The position numbers and the translations under genes are program-made. From positions 1 to 49,129 of the forward strand of contig JAPLLC010000110.1 of the NCBI GenBank assembly GCA_026387775.1: a DNA stretch of 49,129 nucleotides. The letters are read 5' to 3'. The stretch's first letter is position 1. Each line of letters opens with the position of its first letter. Below are positions 14,701 to 40,288 of this stretch, in pieces. This stretch comes from Candidatus Methylomirabilota bacterium (GTDB taxonomy: Bacteria > Methylomirabilota > Methylomirabilia > Methylomirabilales > 2-02-FULL-66-22). The notes beneath the pieces are model-generated. The model had not been told where the DNA came from. It saw only the letters and a program-made list of their open reading frames with translations, and did not search any database.

Positions 14701-14770
14701 GCCGGTGCGTTCGTACGAGTCCTGGTTAGCTCCCCAAGCAGGACGAATTTGGGCACTGGGAGGAAGCGAT
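14701..14770 (+). repeat. Structured repeat, copy 1
   Basis: Shares GAGTCCTGGTT, GCTCCCCAA, CGAAT and TGGGCACTGGGAGGA with the copies at 17461 and 21341, and more weakly with the reversed copy at 23241. Within it GTCCTG (14719-14724) pairs perfectly with CAGGAC (14739-14744). Copies 1 and 3 also share a weaker tail around TGGTGT, running up to the end of the neighbouring minus-strand gene. Confidence 0.75.
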
Positions 14771-14786
14771 TCTCTTGGTGTAAGGG

Positions 14787-15872
14787 TTACGGTGAGGGGC
14801 GCGGCATCTTGCTTTGCAGGGCAGCGATGAACTTCGGATCCAGTTCCCCTCCCCGCGTCGTTGCTTCGGCAAGCCCGATCTTCCTCCACGCCTCGGCATA
14901 GTCGCCAACGAGAAACAGGGTCATCGCCCAACCCTGGAGGTTCAGGGTGTGCTGAGGGGCTTTTTCATATACCCGGGCAAAGTGGACGAAGGCTTTCTTC
15001 ACAAGTGACTCATCCCGGGTTTGTGCGCCGAAGATGCCGAGTGTTAAGCCGTAGTCTGCGTAAAAGTCGAGATCGCTCGATACAAACTCCTCCGCTTCAG
15101 CGAAGAGTTTCAGTGCTTCAGGGCGTCCACCTGGTCTGTTCCCTTGGATGACCGCCATACCCCAAAGGGCTTGTCCATTTGAGCCATCGAGCAACCAAGC
15201 TTGATTAAACCGCCGCATCGCGTCGTCTGTCTTCCCCTGACGTAGAAACTGCCAACCCCGCTCGGCAATTTCCTTCGACGCGCTCTTTCGGTTTCCCTTG
15301 TACTGTTCATCCACCGCGGCAATGAACTCGCGATCCGCTGCTTGCTGAGCCTCGTCTTTCGGCTGCGAGCCATACTTCGGCAGCACATTACTACTTTGCG
15401 GACGGGCTGCATGCACCTCGCGCCCATTACGCGTCAAGGACACATTAGAACCGTCCGGCTTCGCACATTCAGTCGGCAGGCGAAGCTTAGAGACGTCGCC
15501 CTCCGTGAGCGCGACCCACATCGAGAGAAACGAATAGTACTGCCCGGCCGAATTGGGGAAGTGGATACCCCCCGGAATTCGCCACACCTTATCGCCGCGT
15601 TTGGTTTGGACGCCGCCAGGTGCCGCATATAGCACTCCGTGGGCGTCGACATGTATTGGCCGATACTCGCCCACGGGCAGACGGAATTCTCGACCGCCGG
15701 CAGAAAGAGAGCACTCATGCTTGACGAGTAGTGTCGTCTCGATTGCTGGACCCCCGCCGAGAATATCCGACGGGGTGACAGGGTGAAGGCCACTGGCGCA
15801 CGCGTTAAGTACGAAAACGGAAGAGAGACCCATGAAGGAGCAGATGATGGACAGAACGCGTCTCTTCCGCAT
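14787..15872 (-). CDS. Lipoprotein with C-terminal TPR-like repeats
   Basis: A 361-residue protein with a lipoprotein signal: basic start MRKRR, hydrophobic core, lipobox LNAC with Cys25. Residues 40-160 form a beta-rich domain of unknown type containing a GGREFRLPVGEYRPIHVD stretch. Residues 200-350 hold helical repeats of TPR type (AERGWQFLRQGKTDDAMRRF, then LNLQGWAMTLFLVGDYAEAW). The ribosome-binding site GGAGGAGG is strong. Cys and Asn content and codon choice look less GC-biased than the flanking core genes, consistent with acquisition. No specific function is recognised. Confidence 0.75.
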   Translation of the reverse strand: MRKRRVLSIICSFMGLSSVFVLNACASGLHPVTPSDILGGGPAIETTLLVKHECSLSAGGREFRLPVGEYRPIHVDAHGVLYAAPGGVQTKRGDKVWRIPGGIHFPNSAGQYYSFLSMWVALTEGDVSKLRLPTECAKPDGSNVSLTRNGREVHAARPQSSNVLPKYGSQPKDEAQQAADREFIAAVDEQYKGNRKSASKEIAERGWQFLRQGKTDDAMRRFNQAWLLDGSNGQALWGMAVIQGNRPGGRPEALKLFAEAEEFVSSDLDFYADYGLTLGIFGAQTRDESLVKKAFVHFARVYEKAPQHTLNLQGWAMTLFLVGDYAEAWRKIGLAEATTRGGELDPKFIAALQSKMPRPSP

Positions 15873-17460: not shown

Positions 17461-17510
17461 GCCGGTGCGCGCGTTCGAGTCCTGGTTGGCTCCCCAACCG
17501 GGGCGAATCT
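17461..17510 (+). repeat. Structured repeat, copy 2, interrupted by insertion sequence A
   Basis: Begins GCCGGTGCG as in copy 1 and contains the self-complementary GGTTGG-CTCC-CCAACC stem plus GTTCG/CGAAT outer arms. The repeat is cut after GGCGAATCT (17502-17510), where the insertion sequence starts. The usual GGGCACTGGGAGG continuation is absent at this site. Confidence 0.8.
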
Positions 17511-19421
17511 CTAGCCGTTGCACAAAGGTGTTGATGGGTTCGAGTGAGATACGTACAATCCTCTTGCGAGCATTCATCGCAGGGGATTGTCATGTCTCAG
17601 AAGCTTTCCGCCCCCGGCAAGCCTCCCCGTATCCCGCCCCCGGTGGACGGAATCCAAGTGAACTTCTGCAAGAACCCCGGCTGTCCGAACTACGGCGTCC
17701 CGGCCTTGCCCCGGGTTGCATACACCCGCCTCACGGCCGATCCGTTCCATGACCATTATGAGATGGACTGGGGCAAACTTCCCTCCGTGCCCCTCTTGCA
17801 CTGTCAGTTGTGCAGAGAAGAGCCACCGATCAAGAGCAATCAGGCCGTGGCCGAGGAGCGGGCGCGGCTGCTAGCCCCGCTGCAGCAACGTCCAGAGCCC
17901 AGTTGCCCGAACCCGTTGTGCGCAAACCACCCGATTCCCCTCAGCCGCGCCGCTGGCAGTTATCAGTCGTTTGGGAAAACCCACTCTGGATCCCGGCGCT
18001 ACCGCTGTAAGGCCTGCCGGCAGACGTTCTCGGTGGGGATCGCGACCCTGCGCCAGAAAGCCCCCGAGAAGAATCGGACGATCTTTACCCTCCTGGTGAA
18101 CAAGGCCCCCCTTCGTCGGATTTGCGAAGTGGCGCAGATCGATCCGAGCCATCTCTATTGGAAGATCAAGTTTCTGACTGCCCAGTGTCAGACCTTCGTC
18201 GCGGACCGGGAGCGTCGGCTTCTCGGTGGGCTGCCGCTCCGCCGGTTGTATCTCACGACCGATCGGCAAGAGTACATGGTGAACTGGCCGCGGCAAGAGG
18301 ATCGCCGGAACGTGCTCCTCCACGCCGTCGGGACGGCGGACACCACCAGCGGCTACGTGTTTGGGGTACACCTGAACTACGATCCCACCCTGGATGCCGC
18401 CCGGGTGGAGGCGGAGGCCGAAGCCTGTGGGGACCTGCACGCCAAGCGTCCCTTCCGCCGGTTCGCCCGGTGCTGGCTTGCGGCGGATTATGCGGAGAGC
18501 CACCAGCGCCAGGCCGTGCGGGGCCGCCGGGGGAGAGTCCCCCTGCCGGCGGCGATTCAAGCGACCTACGACGAGGCCCTTGAGCGCGAGGACGTCGAAG
18601 TCTCCGACCCCCCATCCCCCGATCGGCGTCTGCCGGCTAAGGGTATGCAGCTCCACGCGGAGTACACGCTCTACGGGCACTTCTTCTATCTGCGGGAGCT
18701 CTTCCGCGGGGTCGAGAAGCTCCGGTTCTTCCTCGATCAGGACTCGGGCATGCGGGCCGCCTGTCTCGCCGCCTTCCACCCTGAGATTGCCGCGCGCCGG
18801 GCGGATGCCTTCTATGTGCGGATCGCCTCCAAGCTGACGATCTCTGAGAAGCGGGCCGCCATCGCCGAGAGCCGGCGGGCCTTTCAGGAGGCTCGCCGAG
18901 CACATCCCGACCTCTCGGAAACCGAGGTCAAGCTGCTGCTAATCAAGACCCGGATGCGCGAGATGGCGGCCCTGGGCAAATGGCAGGATAAGTGGTTGAC
19001 GCACCCCTTTCCCCATATGAGTGAGCCCAGGAAGGCCGTCTGTTACCTCACCGATTACGGGGATTACGACGAGGATCACCGGGCGTGGCTCTACAACAAG
19101 GCCTCCCTGCACGCGATCGATTGTTTCTTTATGCAGGTGCGCCGCCGGCTCTCGATTCTCGAACGACCCATTGCTTCGGCGAGCGCTCTCCAGCGGACCT
19201 GGTACGGGTACAGTCCCTACAATCCCGAGAACATCTTGCGGCTGTTGACGATCTTCCGCGCCTACTATAACTACTGCTTACCTGGGAAGGGTGGAACCAC
19301 ACCGGCCATGCGACTGGGATTAGCCAGCGCGAAGGTGGACTTGGAGGACATCATTCGGTTCCAGACCGTCGCAGGTCAGGGGTTGACTTCTGGATTTTCA
19401 ACACCTTTGTGCAACGGCTAG
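17511..19421 (+). mobile_element. Insertion sequence A, complete
   Basis: Length 1911 bp. Perfect 24-bp terminal inverted repeats occupy 17511-17534 (starting CTAGCCGTTGC) and 19398-19421. Flanking direct repeats GGCGAATCT at 17502-17510 and 19422-19430 give a 9-bp target duplication. One transposase gene fills the element and its stop codon TAG is the last three bases of the right repeat. The intact ends and duplication suggest recent movement. Confidence 0.92.
17592..19421 (+). CDS. Transposase with N-terminal zinc fingers, family unassigned
   Basis: A 609-residue protein starting at ATG 17592 (AGGGG 7 nt upstream). The first 150 residues hold four Cys pairs: Cys26/31, Cys71/74, Cys105/110 and Cys139/142. 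The last pair, in RYRCKACRQTFSV, resembles the zinc ribbon of IS1-type InsA and related transposases. Candidate acidic catalytic residues are Asp224 (LYLTTDRQEY), Asp382/384 (RFFLDQDSG) and Glu546 (YNPENILRLL), an RNase H-like DDE pattern. I infer transposase mainly because the gene exactly fills an element with inverted repeats and target duplication. The length is large for IS1-like enzymes, and I cannot name the family. Confidence 0.8.
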   Translation: MSQKLSAPGKPPRIPPPVDGIQVNFCKNPGCPNYGVPALPRVAYTRLTADPFHDHYEMDWGKLPSVPLLHCQLCREEPPIKSNQAVAEERARLLAPLQQRPEPSCPNPLCANHPIPLSRAAGSYQSFGKTHSGSRRYRCKACRQTFSVGIATLRQKAPEKNRTIFTLLVNKAPLRRICEVAQIDPSHLYWKIKFLTAQCQTFVADRERRLLGGLPLRRLYLTTDRQEYMVNWPRQEDRRNVLLHAVGTADTTSGYVFGVHLNYDPTLDAARVEAEAEACGDLHAKRPFRRFARCWLAADYAESHQRQAVRGRRGRVPLPAAIQATYDEALEREDVEVSDPPSPDRRLPAKGMQLHAEYTLYGHFFYLRELFRGVEKLRFFLDQDSGMRAACLAAFHPEIAARRADAFYVRIASKLTISEKRAAIAESRRAFQEARRAHPDLSETEVKLLLIKTRMREMAALGKWQDKWLTHPFPHMSEPRKAVCYLTDYGDYDEDHRAWLYNKASLHAIDCFFMQVRRRLSILERPIASASALQRTWYGYSPYNPENILRLLTIFRAYYNYCLPGKGGTTPAMRLGLASAKVDLEDIIRFQTVAGQGLTSGFSTPLCNG

Positions 19422-19430
19422 GGCGAATCT
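19422..19430. repeat. Right target-site duplication of insertion sequence A
   Basis: GGCGAATCT, identical to 17502-17510. It separates element A from the left end of element B by exactly these 9 bases. Confidence 0.85.
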
Positions 19431-21305
19431 CTAGCCGTTCCAGAAAGGTGTTGAAAAGTCTGAGAGGTGTGGGCACAATAGCGAGAGATTATCTGAGGAT
19501 AGGGGGTTGCCATTCCTGAGAAGATTTCTTCCGCAGACAAACGCCCCCGCATCCCGCCCTCTGTCAGCGGGGTCCAGGTCAACTTCTGCAAGAACCCCAA
19601 CTGCCCTAATTACGGAGTCCCAGCCCTCGCGCACGTCTCCCGCGGGCACATCACTGCCCATTCCATTCACGATCGGTACGAACTCGATCGAGGCGTAGAT
19701 CCGTGGGTGCCGTGCCTGCATTGCAAGCTCTGCAAAGAAGAGCCACCGCTCAAGAGCAATCAGGGCATCACCGAGGAACGGAACCGACTCTCGAAGGAGC
19801 TCCAACGACTGCTCGCGCCTACGTGTCCGAATCCGGCGTGCGAAAATCACCACATGCCGATCACCAAGGGCAGCGACCATTACCACCGATTCGGGAAGAC
19901 CCACTCTGGATCACAACGCTACCGCTGCAAGGCCTGTTGTAGGACGTTCGCGGTGGCCACCGCCACGGTGCGGCAGAAGGCCCCGCATCAGAACCGCACG
20001 ATTTTTTCTCTCTTGATGAACAAGGCCCCGTTTCGCCGGATCTGCGAAGCAGCCGGCACGCATCCGGGCCCCCTGTATGGGAAACTGCAGTTTCTGACGG
20101 CCCAGTGCCGGGCCTTCAGCGCGGAACGGGAGCACCGCCTCCGCGAGGGTCTGCCCATCCGCCGACTGTATCTGGCCACTGACCGGCAGGAATACGTGGT
20201 GAACTGGTCGCGGCAAGAGGACCGGCGGAACGTGCGGCTGTACGCCGTGGGCACGGCCGATAACGAGACGGGGTACGTGTTTGGGATGCACTTGAACTTC
20301 GATCCGACCTTGGATCCCGGCGCGGTGGAGCGCGAGGCGCAGGCCTGCGGGGACCCCCAGACCAAACGCCCCTTCCGGCGGTACGCCCGGTGTTGGCTCG
20401 CGGCGGACTACGACTACGCGCTCCAGCGGCAGACCCACAGGGGCCAGCGGGGACACCAGCCCCTGACCGACGAGATCCAGGCGGTCTATGATGAGGCCGG
20501 GGACCGGGAGGATGTGGAAGCCTTTGAAACGCAATCGCTCGCCCGACGCCTGCCCAGCGCCGGCATGCAGATCCACGCCGAGTACACGCTCTATGGCCAT
20601 TTCTTCTATCTCCGGCAGCTCTTCGGCGGGGTGGAAAAGCTCCGGTTCTTCCTGGATCAGGAGTCCGGCATCCGTGCGGCGTGCCTGACGGCCTTCCAGC
20701 CCGAGATCGCCGCGCGCCAGGCGGATGCCTTTTACGTGCGGATTGATCCGCGGCTGACGATTACAGAAAAGCGGGTCGCCGTTGCCGAAAGCCGGAAGAT
20801 CTTTCGGGCGGCCCAGCAGGCGCACCCCACCATGTCGGAAACGGAGGTTCGGCTCCTGCTCATCAAGCAGCGGATGAGCACGATGGCGGCGCTCGGCAAA
20901 TGGCAGGACAGGTGGCTGACGCACCCCTTTCCCCACATGAGCGAACCCCGGAAAGCCGTCTGCTATCTCACCGATTTGGGGGACTATGACGAGGAGCATC
21001 GGGCGTGGCTCTACAACAAGGCTTCCTTGCATGGCATTGACCGGTTCTTCATGCAGGTCCGCCGCCGTCTCTCGATTCTCGAGCGACCCATCACCTCGGC
21101 CAGCGCGTTTCAGCGGACCTGGTACGGGTACAGCGCGTACAATCCCGAGAGCGTTTCGCGACTGTTGACAATCTTTCGCGTGTACTACAACTACTGTCTT
21201 GCGGGAAAAGGGGAAGCCACGCCGGCCATGCGATTGGGGCTCGCCAAAGGTAAGGTGGCCCTCGAGGACATCATCTACTTTAGAGCTGGGATTCAAGAGG
21301 AGTAG
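19431..21305 (+). mobile_element. Insertion sequence B, degraded relative of A
   Basis: The left end 19431-19454 matches the left repeat of element A at 22 of 24 positions. The expected right repeat is not found before the structured repeat at 21341, so the right end has been lost. The gene within is roughly 70% identical to the transposase of element A by eye. The end coordinate given is the stop of the reading frame, not a defined element end. Confidence 0.8.
19512..21305 (+). pseudogene. Transposase of insertion sequence B, start codon and C-terminus altered
   Basis: The frame aligned to the intact transposase opens at ATT (19512), exactly where element A has ATG. An in-frame stop at 19500 precludes an earlier start. 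The first usable start is GTG at 19707, which would remove the first zinc-binding Cys pair (CKNPNC). From there the frame is uninterrupted and keeps the same Cys pairs, LYLATDRQEY and LRFFLDQESG; the Glu region reads AYNPESV. The C-terminal 13 or so residues that in A are encoded by the right terminal repeat are replaced by unrelated GIQEE. It is probably non-functional, or initiates at ATT with low efficiency. Confidence 0.75.
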
Positions 21306-21340: not shown

Positions 21341-21430
21341 TCTTCAGGTTCGAGTCCTTGTTGGCTCCCCAAGCGGGGCGAATCTGGGCACTGGGAGGAG
21401 AGGGTGTCGCTGGTGTGAAGGCTTAACGGG
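21341..21430 (+). repeat. Structured repeat, copy 3
   Basis: Contains GGTTCG (21347-21352) pairing with CGAATC (21379-21384) and an inner TTGG-CTCC-CCAA stem (21361-21372). GGGCACTGGGAGGA follows as in copy 1, and a weak TGGTGTGAAGG similarity continues to the end of the DUF2971 region. Confidence 0.75.
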
Positions 21431-21434
21431 CCGT

Positions 21435-21457
21435 GGATGGGGGGCGCATGGTTAGAT
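21435..21457 (-). repeat. Half of an attC-like site at the 3' end of the DUF2971 gene
   Basis: On the minus strand the gene ends TGCAATCTAACCATGCGC, with the stop codon TAA inside ATCTAAC. The same 18-nt string with one mismatch occurs in reverse orientation at 22372-22389. ATCTAAC fits the RYYYAAC box that opens integron attC sites and often contains the cassette's stop codon. The matching distal half is not found. Confidence 0.5.
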
Positions 21458-22357
21458 TGCATCGAAGTAGAGTCGAAACTGATCGGTTCCGCGCCGCGCT
21501 TGGAAGATCCGCGATTTCGGGTAATTCGCGGAAAGCAAGGTGACGAATGACTCCTTGAGCTTGGGATCCATGTTACACCCCAGGTAGACTGACCCGACCT
21601 CGTTCGGTCGAAGACGGTAGTCGGAGAAAAAGGAGTCCTGCCGATGGGGCAGCAGGTCCCATACCCGCCACTCCTTCTCATATGACCACACATCGCTCTT
21701 GACGCGGGCGTATCGGAAGTACAGGTCGTCGACATCGAGATCGCGGACGCCCAGAATATCGTCGAGCCACTGCTGCTCTGTGAAGAAGGGCGGAGGGGCG
21801 CTCCGATAAACGACGGGTTCAGCGACGCACAGGGGATTGTCTTCGTCAGGCAACACCAGGAATTCGAAGACGACACCGGTGTGAGATTTTCCGTAGTGGG
21901 ACCACATAAGCAGATTGTCCCTCTCTTCGCAGACGCTGAATACACGGAGCCGAGGTAGAAACTCCTTCCACTTGTGTTGGTACTTGACCTGAAAGTGAAT
22001 GATCTTGTCCTTGAGCTCCTTCAGCGGCAGCTCGCACGCCTCCCAGAGGCGTTCTCTTGGAAAACCCTGAGTGATCCGCCTGTCCCACATGAAGAGGACG
22101 GCCTGGCCCCATGGATCGTCTACAGAGAGGTTCGGTCGCGTGGATGAGGCGACCAGATCCTCGATGCGCTTGAAGAGCTTGTCCGGTAGCGATCCGATAG
22201 CGAAGTCAAAGTGAAGGCCAGCTTGAACGTCGAAAGGATCGTTGAATATGAGGGGTGAGCTGTAGCGAACAGCCCCGACCTGGAGGATCTTGATCGCCGT
22301 TGTTGCCGACGTGTACTTGAAGAACCGCTCTCTGTCGTGTCTTGGATGAGACAGCAC
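21452..22357 (-). CDS. DUF2971 family protein
   Basis: A 301-residue protein. I favour GTG at 22357, which has AAGGTGGGG just upstream, over a GTG 18 codons earlier that lies inside the attC-like site. DUF2971 is recognised by FFKYTSATTAIKILQVGAV, RYSSPLIFNDPFDVQ and CEERDNLLMWSHYGKSHTGV. The family has no firm biochemical role but is frequent on mobile and defence islands. Flanking attC-like sequences suggest it arrived as a gene cassette. It is soluble, with no signal peptide or membrane helix. Confidence 0.8.
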   Translation of the reverse strand: MLSHPRHDRERFFKYTSATTAIKILQVGAVRYSSPLIFNDPFDVQAGLHFDFAIGSLPDKLFKRIEDLVASSTRPNLSVDDPWGQAVLFMWDRRITQGFPRERLWEACELPLKELKDKIIHFQVKYQHKWKEFLPRLRVFSVCEERDNLLMWSHYGKSHTGVVFEFLVLPDEDNPLCVAEPVVYRSAPPPFFTEQQWLDDILGVRDLDVDDLYFRYARVKSDVWSYEKEWRVWDLLPHRQDSFFSDYRLRPNEVGSVYLGCNMDPKLKESFVTLLSANYPKSRIFQARRGTDQFRLYFDAI

Positions 22358-22372
22358 CGCCCCACCTTTGCA

Positions 22373-22479
22373 ATCTAACGATGCGCATAACCGGCCGTGC
22401 GGTACCCCCACGCTAATTGATCATGCCATCCGCCCCACTTGCGCCACGTACTCGCGGTCCGGTTGATGCGCTTGTCAGC
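22373..22479 (-). repeat. attC-like imperfect palindrome (integron recombination site candidate)
   Basis: A 107-bp site between two minus-strand genes. GCGCAT (22383-22388) pairs with ATGCGC (22466-22471), and AACCGG (22389-22394) with CCGGTT (22459-22464), leaving G22465 extrahelical. A further ~11 pairs reach GTAC/GTAC (22403-22406 region and 22448-22450) with single bulges. The outer boxes, GTTAGAT on the minus strand (complement of 22373-22379) and GTCAG (22474-22478), pair across a short unpaired spacer. GTTAGAT fits the GTTRRRY consensus. Orientation is right for a cassette array read leftwards. Confidence 0.55.
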
Positions 22480-22513
22480 TGCTCAGAGACTCAATGGACT
22501 GCGCTGTCATTCT

Positions 22514-22936
22514 TCATCGGCCAGGATGAACACTTCTCGCCTTCATTCGGGGATAGATCCTGAAGATGAAAAGACATGAAGCTGCGACGGTAATAGATGC
22601 GAGTACGGGATTGAGCAGATGGAGGTATCTGACCGCTGCTTCACGCGGAACGCTGGTCAACGGGATAATAACGGCGAGTAGAGCCCCGGCGAGGAACCAC
22701 AGAACTAGTCCTAGGATAATGGATGTGAGGGACCTCTTCATGAATTGAGTGCGCCGATTGGCTACGAGGACGACCCCCAACACGAGTGAAGGAGGTAACA
22801 GAATCAGATTGGCATAGATGCTGGATTCAAGAACAGTAGGGATATGCGACATACCCCAGATAGCGCCAAGAAAGAATGTGAGAACAAACCAAATGAGGGT
22901 GCCCCAAAACAGACCGGAGAGCAGTTTCCTCATCAT
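22514..22936 (-). CDS. Small four-helix membrane protein, unknown function
   Basis: A 140-residue protein from ATG at 22936 (GAGG 5 nt upstream; a longer in-frame extension lacks a site). Four hydrophobic segments are clear: LLSGLFWGTLIWFVLTFFLG, LILLPPSLVLGVVLVA, IILGLVLWFLAGALLAVIIP and PVLASITVAASCLFIF. The C-terminus is basic and short. I recognise no family. Its base composition is less GC-rich than neighbours, and it is followed 35 nt later by the attC-like site, so it may be the upstream cassette of the pair. Confidence 0.65.
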   Translation of the reverse strand: MMRKLLSGLFWGTLIWFVLTFFLGAIWGMSHIPTVLESSIYANLILLPPSLVLGVVLVANRRTQFMKRSLTSIILGLVLWFLAGALLAVIIPLTSVPREAAVRYLHLLNPVLASITVAASCLFIFRIYPRMKARSVHPGR

Positions 22937-23010
22937 CCGTTCCTCGGTTTGGGAGGTGCCAAACACCCCCTGGATTGCAGGAGGAAAGTTGGGCGAACCG
23001 TCGGTCGAAG

Positions 23011-23037
23011 AGTATCGTCGCGCTCACGGGCTGTCAA
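23011..23037 (-). promoter_or_regulatory. Promoter upstream of the small membrane-protein gene
   Basis: Perfect TTGACA (complement of 23032-23037) and GATACT (complement of 23011-23016) with a tight 15-nt spacer, about 75 nt before the gene start. The spacing is shorter than ideal. Confidence 0.4.
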
Positions 23038-23046
23038 CCGTAAACG

Positions 23047-23071
23047 CCCCCCGTTTCAGTAACACGGGGGG
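23047..23071 (-). terminator. GC-rich hairpin
   Basis: CCCCCCGT and ACGGGGGG arms around a 9-nt loop, lying between the DUF2284 stop and the promoter at 23011. It could end transcription from the DUF2284 gene. No T tract is present on the minus strand. The 23072-23240 sequence holds no gene. Confidence 0.45.
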
Positions 23072-23240
23072 TTGAAAATACACGAGGAGGAAAGTAGGCA
23101 CAGAATCGGTCAGGGGGAGCACCGACACATGGAGGTGCGAGTCTGAAGGACCACATAGGCAAGGCCGCCAGAGCCCCGAGGCGGCCGACAGGATCGCAGG
23201 CGGGGCGGCGGCCGTCGAGCGGGACGAAGAGACTCCTGGG

Positions 23241-23291
23241 GTGGTGCCCAGATTCGGACCCAGATGGTTCCCCATCAAGGACTCGAACCCG
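23241..23291 (-). repeat. Structured repeat, copy 4 (reverse orientation)
   Basis: Read on the minus strand it gives GGTTCGAGTCCTTG, an inner stem GATGG-GGAA-CCATC and CGAATCTGGGCAC, matching copies 1-3 in order but with a different inner stem sequence. It lies 14 nt beyond the DUF2284 stop. Confidence 0.7.
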
Positions 23292-27972: not shown

Positions 27973-28091
27973 CAGTGTCCGCGGAAATCAGTGAGCCGCA
28001 CCCTCTTGCCGCGGCGAATCGCGTCGGCACCGACGCATCGCGGCAACCCTCAGCACGCAGTTCGCAGGCTGTTGGAATACTCACTCTTCGG

Positions 28092-28216
28092 CAGGCTGCT
28101 CAAAAAGGTCCAGATGCAAGGCGGAACACGCAGAGCCGAGTGAGGCGTACTCCAGGTACGCCGCAACGAGTGCCCAAGTGTTCCAACGCCGCAGATGGGC
28201 CTTTTTCAGCAGCCTG
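28092..28216 (-). repeat. 125-bp palindromic repeat, copy A
   Basis: Ends CAGGCTGCTCAAAAAGG and CCTTTTTCAGCAGCCTG are inverted repeats. A central GGCGTAC/GTACGCC palindrome lies at 28144-28162. It matches the 125-bp element at 40105-40229 in reverse orientation, with similarity continuing to about 28064. It directly follows the TAA of the DUF898 gene. Confidence 0.85.
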
Positions 28217-29326
28217 TTAGATGCCCAGATCGAAGCCCGCATCCAGGAGGTTGGCCAACCCTTCGCCCGTGGCGGACGCGTCCTGGGCTTCCTGCTGGAT
28301 GCTCGCCAGGTCCAGGGAGCCTTCCAGGGTCAAGTACCTGAAGGTGAAACGGATGCCTCGCGCCGCGACCCATGGCCAGCCGAGCCCCAGCGTCACGATC
28401 AGGAGGAGCATATTCCCCAGGCTGAACCCGAGGAGGCGTCCTCCCGTGACGGTGGAGTGGAAGCGGGCGGGACCGAACGCGGTGTGGTCCCAGTAGTAGC
28501 GCTGCTTCCTGGCCGCGAACCAGACCCAGCACAGGCCCAGGGTCGGCAGCGTGAGAAGGAGCGTCAGCAGATACCTGCCAAAGAGGTCTTTGCCCCGGCC
28601 GTCGAACGAGAACGGCTGGTTGCCGAGATACGAGTGCGACACCAGGAACCCGTGCCGCCGAGCGTCGAAGATGGGATAGTAGAGGCCCAGCGTGACGGTG
28701 CTGAGCAGCGAGCCCCAGAGGAAGAGCGTGACGAACTCCCGAACCCCACCCCGGAACGAGAACCGGACGCCGCGCCAAGACGTCCGGCTCAGCCGATAGC
28801 GCCGCGCGCCCACGATCGCGACGGGGAGAAAGGCCAGAATGAGGACGGAGGACAGGAATTTTACGATGGCTTCGATGATCGGCGATGTGACCAGAATACC
28901 CATGACCAGATTCAAAACCATGAGAGGGAGACCGACGAGCAACACGGCCTTCAGAGAACCGAAGAGCAGCTCCTTGCCGGTCCCGTGATAGGCGAACCGG
29001 TCCCCCTCCAGCTCCGTCTGGCTCAGGAGGTAGCTCCGGACCTTCGCCTTGCCCCAGAAATAATAGAGGCCCAGCGTGACCACAGTGAGAAAGAGGTTGA
29101 CGATGTGAATCCCGAAGAGGGATCCGCCCGTGCCGTGGAAGGACATCCGATGGGCCTGCCCCGCCTGAGGGCTGGGGTCGTTGCCGGGCGTCTTCCGCTC
29201 AACGGGAGGCTTCCGCTCAGCCGAGAACGCCGCCGACGACGCGCCCAGTGGCGTCCGACAGGACTTGCAGGTCGGCCCCGGCAACTGCATCAACCCACAC
29301 TTCGGGCACTTCACCCCCGTGGCCAT
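28217..29326 (-). CDS. DUF898 (YjgN-like) membrane protein with N-terminal zinc ribbon
   Basis: A 369-residue protein beginning with a zinc ribbon, CPKCGLMQLPGPTCKSCRTP. It continues with a repeated membrane module: FHGTGGSLFGIHIVNLFLTV, TLGLYYFWGKAKVRSYL and YHGTGKELLFG, with a second set at FDGRGKDLFGRYLLTLLLT. This G-x-G-x-LFG/YYFW pattern is the DUF898/YjgN signature. About six to eight membrane helices are predicted by eye. Function is unknown. GGAGGGACG precedes the start. The last codon is followed at once by the 125-bp repeat. Confidence 0.85.
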   Translation of the reverse strand: MATGVKCPKCGLMQLPGPTCKSCRTPLGASSAAFSAERKPPVERKTPGNDPSPQAGQAHRMSFHGTGGSLFGIHIVNLFLTVVTLGLYYFWGKAKVRSYLLSQTELEGDRFAYHGTGKELLFGSLKAVLLVGLPLMVLNLVMGILVTSPIIEAIVKFLSSVLILAFLPVAIVGARRYRLSRTSWRGVRFSFRGGVREFVTLFLWGSLLSTVTLGLYYPIFDARRHGFLVSHSYLGNQPFSFDGRGKDLFGRYLLTLLLTLPTLGLCWVWFAARKQRYYWDHTAFGPARFHSTVTGGRLLGFSLGNMLLLIVTLGLGWPWVAARGIRFTFRYLTLEGSLDLASIQQEAQDASATGEGLANLLDAGFDLGI

Positions 29327-32522: not shown

Positions 32523-33802
32523 TCGGACCCCTCCTCCTCGGCTTCGTCCTCCTCGCGCTGCTCGGCGTGCCCATGGCCGTCGCCATGGGGGTGGCCGTGG
32601 CGGTCACCATGGCGTTCTTCACCCCGTTTCCGGTGCTCGGCGTCATCCAGCGCATGGTGACGGGGATCGACTCCTTCGTGCTGATCTCCATTCCCTTTTT
32701 TATGTTGACCGGTCGTTTGATGAACGCGGGTGGGATCACCAACGACCTGTTCCGCTTCGCGCGCAGTCTGGTGGGCCCCATCCGGGGCGGCCTGGCCCAC
32801 GCCAACGTCATCGCCAACATGATCCTGGCCGGCATGTCGGGCTCGGCGGTGGCGGACGCGGGCGGTATGGGCGTGGTGGTCATCAAGGCCATGCACGAGC
32901 AGGGCTATCGGAAGGAGTTGGCGGCGGCGATCACCGTGGCCGCCTCCACCATCGGACCCATCATCCCGCCCAGCATCCCCATGGTCATCTACGGGGCCAT
33001 GGCCGAGGTGTCGGTGGGGAGGCTGTTTCTGGGAGGCTTCGTCCCGGGGGCCCTGATGGGGTTGGGCCTGATGGCGCTGATTTATCTCTTCAGCTTCCGC
33101 GAGGCCATGCCCAGGGATCGGCTCTATGGGCTGGGAGAGATCTTGGAGGCGTTCCGGTCGGCCTTCCTGTCGCTGCTCACACCCGTCATCCTCATCGGCG
33201 GGATCCTGAGCGGGATCTTCACCCCCACGGAGGCCTCCGCGGTGGCCGCCATCTACGCCTTCGTGCTCTGCTTCTTCATCTACAAGACGGTGACGCTGCG
33301 GGACATCCCGGAAATCATCGTGGACACCTTCGTGACCACGGCGGTGGTGACCTTCATCATCTCGGCGACCTCGGGCCTCTCCTATCTACTGATCGTGGGC
33401 AAGATCGGCAGCATGCTGGTGGAGTCCACCCTGGCGCTGACGCACAACCCCTGGATCGTCCTGTTCATCATCAACATCGCGCTCCTCGTCCTGGGCTGCC
33501 TGATGGAGGCCGGCGTCCTGCTGATCCTGTTGACCCCCATCCTGGTGCCCATGATGAAGAGCCTGGGCGTGGACCTGGTCCACTTCGGGCTGGTGATGGT
33601 CCTCAACCTGATGATCGGCGTGGCCACGCCCCCGGTGGGGATGTGCCTCTTCGTGGTCAGCGGCGCGACCGGCATCAAGCTGGAGCGGCTCATGCGGGAG
33701 GTAATCCCGTGGGTCATCCCGCTCATCGTCGTGCTCTTCTTGATCACGTACTTCCCTAGCCTCGTGCTGACGGTGCCCAACTGGCTCATGCCGGCCAAGT
33801 GA
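32519..33802 (+). CDS. dctM: TRAP transporter large permease (DctM), system 1
   Basis: A 427-residue polytopic protein, normal DctM length. Family signatures include ISIPFFMLTGRLMNAGGIT, ANMILAGMSGSAVADAGGM and TIGPIIPPSIPMVIYGAMA in the first half, and ILIGGILSGIFTPTEASAVA and NLMIGVATPPVGMCLFV in the second. These hairpin and discontinuous-helix motifs hold the Na+ and substrate sites of the elevator transporter. Translation is coupled to dctQ. A 130-nt gap without a visible gene separates it from the binding protein. Confidence 0.92.
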   Translation: MIGPLLLGFVLLALLGVPMAVAMGVAVAVTMAFFTPFPVLGVIQRMVTGIDSFVLISIPFFMLTGRLMNAGGITNDLFRFARSLVGPIRGGLAHANVIANMILAGMSGSAVADAGGMGVVVIKAMHEQGYRKELAAAITVAASTIGPIIPPSIPMVIYGAMAEVSVGRLFLGGFVPGALMGLGLMALIYLFSFREAMPRDRLYGLGEILEAFRSAFLSLLTPVILIGGILSGIFTPTEASAVAAIYAFVLCFFIYKTVTLRDIPEIIVDTFVTTAVVTFIISATSGLSYLLIVGKIGSMLVESTLALTHNPWIVLFIINIALLVLGCLMEAGVLLILLTPILVPMMKSLGVDLVHFGLVMVLNLMIGVATPPVGMCLFVVSGATGIKLERLMREVIPWVIPLIVVLFLITYFPSLVLTVPNWLMPAK

Positions 33803-37001: not shown

Positions 37002-38294
37002 ATGATGACGGCCGCCATCTTCGCGGTGCTCTTCCTCTTCATCCTGCTGGGGCTGCCCATCGCCGTCTGCATGGGCTTCACCGCTGTGATCTTCTTCGTG
37101 GTGCTCGGGCAAGCCGACGTTCTGCTCATGCTCCCGGCCCGCATGTACTCGGGCACCACCAGCTTCACGCTGCTCGCGATCCCCTTCTTCATCCTGGCCG
37201 GCAACCTCATGAACACCGGCGGGATGACGCAGCGCCTCGTGCATTTCGCCCAGTGTCTGGTCGGGCATATCCGCGGGGGGCTGGGCCACGTGACCGTCGT
37301 CACCAACATGATCATGGCGGGAATGTCCGGGTCGGCGGTGGCGGATGCGACGGGGACCGGAGTCGTCCTGATCCCCGCCATGGAGAAGGCCGGCTATCCC
37401 CGGGCCTTCTCGGCGGCCCTGGTGGGGGCGGCGTCCACCATCGGCCCCATCATTCCGCCCAGCATTCCCTTCGTGATCTTCGGCAGCATCACCGGCACCT
37501 CGGTCGGCCGGCTGTTCCTGGGGGGATTCCTGCCCGGCGTCCTGATGGGGATCTTCCTGATGATCACGGTGGCCATCCTTTCCAAGCGGCGGGGATATCG
37601 CCGGGAGGAGCGGGCGAGCCGCCGGGAGCTGATGATCTCTGCGCTCCAGGCCACCCCGGCCTGGGGCGCCCCGATCATCATCATCGGGGGAATCCTGGCC
37701 GGCGTCTTCACACCGACAGAGGCCGCCGTGGCGGCCAGCCTCTACGCGCTGATCGTGGGCATGCTGGTTTATGGGGAGATCACGATAGCGGATCTCCCAC
37801 GGATCCTCTGGGAGACGATCCAGAACACGATCCAGGTCATGTTCATCATCGCGGCGGCCGGCATCTTCGGGTTTCTCTTGATCCGGCAGCAGGTTCCCAT
37901 GACGCTCGTCGAGGGGCTGATGAGCTTGACCACGACCCCCTGGGTCGTCCTCCTGGTCATCAACGTCATCCTGTTGATCCTGGGCTGCTTCATGGAGGCG
38001 ATCGCCATCATGCTCCTCACCATCCCCGTCTTCATGCCGCTGATCGCGCGGGTGGGAGTGGACCCGGTCCACTTCGGCGTCCTGCTGACGCTGAACCTGA
38101 TGATCGGCCTGCTCACGCCGCCCGTGGGGATGTGCTTGTACGCAGTGTCGAGCGTCAGCAAGGTCCCCCTGTGGCCGCTGGCGAAGGAGCTGTGGCCCTA
38201 CATCGCGGCCCTGACGGTCTGCCTCGGCCTGGTGACGTATGTTCCCGGCCTGGTCCTCTGGATTCCGAACCTGGTCATGGGGGTGGCGCGATGA
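37002..38294 (+). CDS. dctM: TRAP transporter large permease (DctM), system 2
   Basis: A 430-residue polytopic protein. Signatures are LAIPFFILAGNLMNTGGMTQ, TNMIMAGMSGSAVADATGT, TIGPIIPPSIPFVIFGSITG, IIIGGILAGVFTPTEAAVAA and LTLNLMIGLLTPPVGMCLYA. It lies before its dctQ, an order less common than Q before M. The start overlaps the 4-nt ATGA with dctQ2 at its 3' end. GGAG precedes the ATG pair at 37002. Confidence 0.92.
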   Translation: MMTAAIFAVLFLFILLGLPIAVCMGFTAVIFFVVLGQADVLLMLPARMYSGTTSFTLLAIPFFILAGNLMNTGGMTQRLVHFAQCLVGHIRGGLGHVTVVTNMIMAGMSGSAVADATGTGVVLIPAMEKAGYPRAFSAALVGAASTIGPIIPPSIPFVIFGSITGTSVGRLFLGGFLPGVLMGIFLMITVAILSKRRGYRREERASRRELMISALQATPAWGAPIIIIGGILAGVFTPTEAAVAASLYALIVGMLVYGEITIADLPRILWETIQNTIQVMFIIAAAGIFGFLLIRQQVPMTLVEGLMSLTTTPWVVLLVINVILLILGCFMEAIAIMLLTIPVFMPLIARVGVDPVHFGVLLTLNLMIGLLTPPVGMCLYAVSSVSKVPLWPLAKELWPYIAALTVCLGLVTYVPGLVLWIPNLVMGVAR

Positions 38295-38895: not shown

Positions 38896-40104
38896 ATGAG
38901 TCCGCAATCCAAGGAGCCCTGGCGCAGCACCCACTGGCACTGCAGCCCGCACAACTTTGACCCGAGCCTCCAGGTGCCGCTCCACCCCGTGGCCCTGCAC
39001 GACATCACCGTGCGGGACGGGGAGGAGTGCGCCGACGTGGCCTTCACCGTCGACGACAAGGTGCGGATCGCCGAGGCGCTGGCGCTGGTCGGGATCAAGC
39101 GCATGGAGCTGTTCCTCACCGTGCCCGGCTGGCTGGAGGCCGTGCGGGCCATCCTGCGCCGCAAGCTCCCGCTCGACCTCTACGTCACCTGGCACCCCGG
39201 CCGCGTGGAGCGGGTGCTGGAGCTCGGCGTCCGGCACATCATGGTCTGGTACCGCATCGGCGAGGAGCACCAGCGCTACGACCTCCGCCGGTCGCGGAAA
39301 GAGCTGCTCGATCAGGCCGCCGCGCAGATCGCCGCCGCCCGCCAGGCCGGCTGCGTGGCCAACCTCTTCCTCGTGGAGGGCAGCCGGGCGACGCTGGAGC
39401 AGATCCAGGAGGCGGTCCTGGTCGGCAAGCAGGCCGGCGCCTCGGCCGTCACCGTGGTGGACAGCTACGGCGTGGCCCGGCCCGCGGCTGTCGGGTTCCT
39501 CGTCCGTCAGGTGCGGGAGTGGAGCGGCCTGGAGGTGGATGTCCACTGCCACAACGACTTCGGGCTGTCGACGGCCAACGTGCTGGCCGCCTACGAGGCC
39601 GGCGCCACCGGCCTGAACGTGGCGGTGAACGGCCTGGGGTACCGGGCGGGGAACGCAGCCCTGGACGAGGTGGCGCTGGCGCTGGAGGTCCTCTACGGTG
39701 TAGACACGGGGCTCCGCCTGGAGATGCTCCCGTGGCTGGGCAAGCTCGTCGAAGAGATCACGGGGATCCCCCTCGACTACTTCAAGCCGATCACCGGCAA
39801 GGGCGCCTTCAGCGTCGAGCAGTGGAAGACGGCGAGCGCCATGGAGACGGCCGGCGTCCGGCCGTACGCCTTCCCCTTCGAGCCCGAGCTGGTCGGCCGG
39901 ACCCCCCGGGTCGTGGTCGGCAAGTGGAGCGACGTGGGGGCCGTGGCCAAGAAGCTCAGCGACTACGGCCTCACCGCCTCGCCGGAGGATCTGGGCCGCA
40001 TCCTGCCGGAGTGCCAGCGCGCCGGGATCGCGCACCATCGCCCGCTGACTGACGACGAGTTCCTGGCCGTCGCCAGGGCGCACGGGGCCGTGCCGGCGGA
40101 GTAA
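38896..40104 (+). CDS. DRE-TIM metallolyase/synthase family enzyme (HMG-CoA lyase or 2-isopropylmalate synthase-like)
   Basis: A 402-residue TIM-barrel enzyme. Metal- and acid-binding motifs are seen: LHDITVRDGEECADVAFT with Arg40-Asp41 (DRE motif variant) and VDVHCHNDFGLSTANVLAAY with His217/His219/Asn220. NGLGYRAGNAALDEVA is the G-x-G-x-x-G-N-A-x-x-E loop of the family. Members condense or cleave acyl-CoA and keto acids. The substrate is not predictable; the sequence has neither the LeuA regulatory domain nor an obvious citramalate signature. GAGGT precedes the ATG. Context suggests a carbon-carbon bond step for the imported acid. Confidence 0.82.
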   Translation: MSPQSKEPWRSTHWHCSPHNFDPSLQVPLHPVALHDITVRDGEECADVAFTVDDKVRIAEALALVGIKRMELFLTVPGWLEAVRAILRRKLPLDLYVTWHPGRVERVLELGVRHIMVWYRIGEEHQRYDLRRSRKELLDQAAAQIAAARQAGCVANLFLVEGSRATLEQIQEAVLVGKQAGASAVTVVDSYGVARPAAVGFLVRQVREWSGLEVDVHCHNDFGLSTANVLAAYEAGATGLNVAVNGLGYRAGNAALDEVALALEVLYGVDTGLRLEMLPWLGKLVEEITGIPLDYFKPITGKGAFSVEQWKTASAMETAGVRPYAFPFEPELVGRTPRVVVGKWSDVGAVAKKLSDYGLTASPEDLGRILPECQRAGIAHHRPLTDDEFLAVARAHGAVPAE

Positions 40105-40229
40105 CAGGCTGCTCAAAAAGGCCCATCTGCTGCGTTGGCCCGCTTGGGCGCTCGTTGCGGCGTACCGGTAGTACGCCTCACTCGGCCCTGCGCGTGCCGC
40201 CTTGCATCTGGACCTTTTTGAGCAGCCTG
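40105..40229 (+). repeat. 125-bp palindromic repeat, copy B
   Basis: Exactly as long as copy A (28092-28216) and in opposite orientation. Ends are CAGGCTGCTCAAAAAGG and CCTTTTTGAGCAGCCTG. It immediately follows the TAA of the DRE-TIM gene. Similarity to the copy A flank continues to about 40258. It fills the 184-nt gap before the SDR gene. Confidence 0.85.
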
Positions 40230-40288
40230 CGCGAAAGCGGGATTTCCAGCAGCCTGCCGAAGGGTGGAATCTACAACGGAGGACGGTC

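Follow-up and report, generated by a model that had tools for sequence, protein, structure and literature searches.

Gene cassettes are common away from integrases, and their landing places have mostly been described as scattered attG sites. In IntegronFinder terms, clusters of attC without an integron-integrase are CALIN and single ones are SALIN (PMC9024848, PMC12690207). Secondary sites of the form GTTRRRY take cassette insertions (PMC10127599, PMC2426708), and CALIN are said to arise by such insertions or by loss of intI (PMC8618304). As summarized in PMC12901181 and PMC12444791, attG are genomic cassette insertion sites that are neither attI nor attC (Loot et al. 2024). A CALIN on a Shewanella prophage has its own attI, a copy of the attI of the host's integron (PMC9892861). 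Methylomirabilota, the probable phylum of the class studied here, are absent from the list of phyla in a 2021 review (PMC8618304) and, judged by counts and titles, the literature on Methylomirabilota/Rokubacteria holds only a few passing mentions.

The window analyzed here is the whole 49,129-nt stretch, which is contig C101 of assembly G000. It contains, in order along the minus strand, a membrane-protein gene, an attC (site 1), a DUF2971 gene, and the remnant of a second attC (site 2); the whole element spans about 21348-23092, beyond the coordinates of an earlier, sequence-only reading. It is best read as a short cassette array of the CALIN/SALIN type that lacks an integrase of its own and is now decaying, its cassettes probably having been inserted in trans by an IntI at an attG-like site that recurs in the genome. 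Site 1 has the following parts:

22373-22480, minus strand: attC site 1, 108 bp, from the covariance model and a layout as in 29 attC of relatives
22480-22474, minus strand: R'' box AGCTGAC, then spacer AA
22471-22459, minus strand: L'', made up of GCGCAT (22471-22466), extrahelical C (22465), and AACCGG (22464-22459)
22394-22383, minus strand: L', after a long loop, then spacer ATC
22379-22373, minus strand: R' box GTTAGAT, cut G^TT

By comparison with related genomes, 22373-22480 is identified as an attC in minus orientation, an assignment based on its model score relative to background, on the R388 control, and on the further attC in the genome. Covariance model R1 was built, with the window excluded, from 29 attC that a scanner had found around the integrases of related genomes and that share a single layout (7-nt R'', 2-nt spacer, L'' with one extrahelical base, L', 3-nt spacer, R'). 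Their pairs covary strongly, in a structure that was drawn on the same sequences and is not independent of them. On the minus strand, site 1 aligns to R1 over all 74 positions with a score of 38.7 bits (E 1.2e-7), far above background, while the next-best match in the window scores 17.4 bits. In plasmid R388, the model returned both class 1 attC (52.8 and 47.0 bits), with everything else on the attC strand at or below 9.5 bits. An attC on the plus strand was rejected, as no match there exceeded 7.5 bits; with the attC on the minus strand, both cassette genes have the normal cassette orientation. A search of the whole window against Rfam gave zero matches.

The sequence-only reading had reported a palindrome between the two genes, together with ATCTAAC and CATGCGC at the DUF2971 stop, and all are present as described. 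Its account of the fold holds for the paired L boxes and for the one extrahelical G on the plus strand, but the attC strand is the minus strand. The folding energy of site 1 is ordinary (z -0.96), so the fold alone is no evidence, and in this respect the site resembles a chance palindrome between two unrelated genes. Chance is nonetheless hardly credible given the model E-value and the single match with an arm score equal to or above that of site 1 that a pattern scanner found in 2.9 Mb of shuffled window; a DUF2971 relative elsewhere is also followed by an attC, and a second R''/R' pair lies at the gene end. The R' of site 1 satisfies GTTRRRY. Its R'' does not fit RYYYAAC, and altered R'' boxes also occur in other attC adjoining the 3' block (below); since R boxes differ between cassettes and the remainder of the site fits, we read AGCTGAC as decay.

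No integron-integrase match was found on the window's contig, in agreement with the earlier observation that the window lacks one. The only match over the cut-off in the assembly lies on contig C134, which encodes an intact, full-length IntI (464 bits to TIGR02249), in which the extra region characteristic of IntI can be recognized by eye; its nearest solved protein is the integron integrase IntI4 (E 6e-86). Thus, the window locus lacks the intI adjoining attI and cassettes that defines a complete integron. Contig C134 itself (L009, 18669-19303) breaks off behind a cassette ORF, within what seems to be the first attC, and the assembly therefore lacks the array of this integrase. Model R1 found some 25-30 further attC in the assembly, a lower bound, some of them in arrays of 5-9; arrays occur on contigs C179, C64, C56, C144, and C39, with single attC elsewhere. 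An orphan cassette cluster, offered earlier as something the locus may be, is therefore supported by the model score, by the IntI elsewhere, and by the many attC on other contigs. The earlier reading had also named its own checks, an attC covariance model and a genome search for IntI and similar sites, and had set a low score, no IntI, and no similar palindromes as grounds against it: with the model built from relatives, all three came out the opposite way. In a draft assembly such as this one (312 contigs, 6.2% contamination), the IntI and the window could in principle derive from two different organisms; on the other hand, the flanking blocks do recur in the genus's other genomes.

Integrons are widespread throughout this bacterial class: 26 of 80 relatives had an integron-integrase match at E <= 1e-70, and 56 of 60 had attC. 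In the integrase loci compared, intI comes first and the attC follow it on its own strand, an arrangement shared with the atypical Treponema integrons (PMC3607928) and the reverse of that in class 1 integrons.

The cassette genes and the second site are as follows:

21452-22357, minus strand: DUF2971 cassette gene, start GTG at 22357, product of about 301 aa (longest ORF 21452-22411)
22514-22936, minus strand: small membrane-protein gene of the upstream cassette (ORF 22514-22966, 150 codons; probable ATG at 22936; hydrophobic translation)
21421-21457, minus strand: attC site 2 remnant, 37 bp, with R'' ATCTAAC (21457-21451) and R' GTTAAGC (21427-21421)

The DUF2971 gene has the form of a cassette, by definition one promoter-poor gene that ends at its own attC: its stop (TAA, 21454-21452) lies inside the R'' box and its GTG start 15 nt after the R' of site 1. 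Its product matches PF11185 at 33 bits (cut-off 22) and the PADLOC candidate defence (anti-phage) family PDC-S31 at 8e-31; the gene in this cassette may thus have a role in defence. The membrane-protein gene product matched no Pfam family above cut-off and had no homologue among 95 genomes of the class. What had been called a half-site at the DUF2971 stop does contain an R'', but it is the remnant of a whole site: both R boxes are kept, GTTAAGC lying 23 nt beyond ATCTAAC, and the hairpin in the middle is gone. The remnant has no stable fold and no R1 match. Integron crossover falls between the G and TT of R', so that an R' is part of the cassette that follows it and pairs with the R'' of that cassette. 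The R'' of site 1 belongs to the upstream, membrane-protein cassette. The boxes that bound the DUF2971 cassette (GTTAGAT, 22379-22373; ATCTAAC, 21457-21451) are perfect complements, whereas R'' and R' within site 1 are not, as expected if boxes travel with their own cassette.

The sole relative of the DUF2971 gene found in the class, in genome G026 of the same order, shares 31% identity and is broken by a stop codon. An attC (42.6 bits) lies 14 nt after its stop and is followed by another ORF, which gives independent support for the cassette reading. Homologues with 46% identity are scattered among Hydrogenophaga, Cupriavidus, Chlorobiaceae, and Geothrix; by model R1, which may not fit those clades, these close homologues of other phyla have no attC. 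None of the papers searched links DUF2971 with integrons.

Downstream of the remnant, the window continues into a block that it shares with other loci:

21348-21427, minus strand: 3' conserved block, starting at G^TT of R' and ending in a tRNA-3'-end-like stretch (GTTCGAGTCC...GGCTCCCCA, plus strand)

The sequence from GTTAAGC on (GTTAAGCCTTCACACCAGCGACACCCTCTCC...) was found again on contig C98 of the same assembly, directly behind an attC. In all, this block of about 80 bp stands directly behind an attC or remnant at six loci in three genomes of the genus (G000, G004, and G006):

Window: attC site 2 remnant before the block
G000:C98: attC of 24.9 bits
G004:C283: attC of 34.0 bits
G006:C44: attC of 15.6 bits, with a second attC (42.4 bits) behind it
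G006:C16: attC of 14.0 bits
G006:C221: attC of 13.4 bits

Comparison of the six loci places the start of the block at G^TT in every case, after attC that differ. Here, as at attG and secondary sites, the junction between cassettes and non-integron DNA thus lies at G^TT, and the recurrence of this border beside other cassettes suggests that the integrase repeatedly used the same kind of landing place. The adjacent attC is weak (13-16 bits) at three of the six loci, and in the window it is reduced to a remnant; most of the sites before the block are thus degenerate. Between G006:C44 and G012:C236, the flank is 95.7% identical over 1,695 bp and diverges exactly at GTT, a comparison limited by the G012 contig, which stops about 200 bp past the divergence in apparent sequencing adapter.

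Two tRNA-related explanations of the block were rejected: ARAGORN finds no tRNA gene at the copies scanned, and the tRNA 5' part that the attachment site of a tRNA-integrating island would have was not found. The tRNA-3'-end-like repeat also has copies without an adjacent attC in the window, at 14713-14790, 17473-17510, and 23244-23289, the last of which is:

23244-23289, minus strand: divergent copy of the repeat, in the orientation opposite to that of the 3' block (78% identity, E 0.006)

Other repeats in the window include tandem copies of a long gene (17501-19354 and 19421-21274; 73% identical, 1,920-bp period, no Pfam match), each preceded by a palindromic motif, CTAGCCGTT...AAAGGTGTTGA. 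A near-perfect inverted repeat lies at 19395-19457 (27-nt arms, 93%; TTTTCAACACCTTTGTGCAACGGCTAG / CTAGCCGTTCCAGAAAGGTGTTGAAAA), with related motifs at 17511-17534 and in G000:C243. A dispersed 156-bp repeat has inverted copies at 28064-28219 and 40102-40257 (88.5% identical) and also occurs in G006:C16, and two paralogous stretches (32674-33646 and 37163-38135; 66% identical) have a further relative in G000:C5.

A second block lies on the other side of the cassettes:

22962-23092, minus strand: 5' conserved block, with a hairpin (23071-23047), TTGACA (23037-23032), 17 nt, TACTCT (23014-23009), and a GTT end (22964-22962)

Window positions 23092-22962 are 86% identical to G000:C98:4254-4125 over 131 bp, and the match ends just past GTT; in C98 this copy lies upstream of that contig's genes, another attC, and the 3' block. 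Weaker copies occur in G006:C16, G004:C283, G006:C177, and G004:C198. Behind five of the six good copies (window, C98, C16, C283, and C198), an attC with matching orientation follows within about 0.5-1.6 kb; behind the sixth (C177) come a gene and then a partial 3' block, without an attC. The hairpin is strong. Conservation among the six copies argues for reading TTGACA-17-TACTCT as a putative promoter, which a formal promoter scan did not list (second hexamer 3/6). The left border is less well defined: the similarity between window and C98 ends just past GTT, that between C98 and C198 extends some 8 nt further, and in C16, C283, and C177 the homology ceases after the promoter. By these comparisons, the left boundary is less sharp than the right and is the weak point of the insertion account. 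Nor was an AAC-type L box of an attI seen, by eye, in GCAATCCAGGGGGTG, left of the crossover. An empty site, with the 5' block joined directly to the 3' block, was not found in the genomes examined.

Alternatively, the element could be a fragment of a sedentary integron whose integrase end has moved or been lost, the 3' block being ancestral post-array sequence and the 5' block an attI/promoter region, both copied by rearrangement. Larger arrays and an IntI exist in this genome, and class 1 integrons share the logic of a conserved segment behind the last attC. We consider this origin unlikely: the IntI genes and large arrays examined have neither block next to them, and the copies lie in differing surroundings across three genomes.

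The blocks could also be the two ends of a small, MITE-like transposable element that carries cassettes (compare integron mobilization units) and whose last move did not involve IntI. They are dispersed and flank passenger genes, in C177 they surround a gene without an attC, and the repeat copy at 23244-23289 is inverted. Nevertheless, this is quite improbable, as the 3' block begins exactly at the IntI crossover at six loci, the attC vary between units, and the other side of C98 has no matching inverted end. Flanking inverted repeats as transposon ends were likewise rejected because they are absent at C98.

Insertion by IntI at a recurrent site remains our preferred explanation, and beyond the comparisons themselves we infer insertion in trans, use of the promoter, and loss of mobility. 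An IntI encoded elsewhere, such as that of C134, would insert cassettes by attC recombination at a recurrent, attG-like genomic site, of which the 3' block would be the right half and the 5' promoter block the probable left half. The predicted promoter of the 5' block would drive expression of the inserted cassettes. With the site 2 hairpin lost and the site 1 R'' drifted (AAC to GAC), excision has probably become hard, which would fix the pair in the chromosome. More tentatively, and less probably than not, the genus may have several integrase-free cassette platforms, with one IntI serving all of them in trans. Each would combine a hairpin acting as insulator with a promoter, a G^TT at which cassettes enter, and the conserved 3' block. 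If so, incoming cassettes could be expressed from many places in the chromosome and not from one array only.

Like CALIN and SALIN, the window has an attC and cassette genes but no intI next to them; unlike them, it has blocks on its flanks that are found again at other cassette sites. With one intact attC and a 37-bp remnant, it lies below the CALIN default of at least two attC with no intI nearby, and SALIN is the better fit. It shares with attG and secondary sites, as they are summarized in the sources above, cassettes away from the integrase and a border at G^TT, and differs from attG so described in that its border is a recurrent block of about 80 bp common to several loci, with a promoter block opposite in some. 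The 5'-CS and 3'-CS of class 1 integrons (e.g., In3 of R388) similarly enclose variable cassettes between conserved segments, with a promoter on the 5' side, but the window's 5' block has no intI, no qacE or sul1 is present, several copies occur per genome, and no attI L box was recognized. The Shewanella prophage CALIN (PMC9892861) also combines a cassette cluster with an insertion site and no adjacent integrase, whereas no copy of the host integron's attI was found at the window. In fused cassettes with truncated attC (PMC4670013), partial loss of an attC likewise fixes neighboring genes together, but in the window it is the terminal and not the internal attC that has lost its hairpin. Elements of the CALIN/SALIN and attG kinds are known; apparently undescribed is one border block at several loci together with a promoter block. 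With the same border sequence at several loci in three genomes, both the site preference of IntI and on-site expression become testable by strain comparison.
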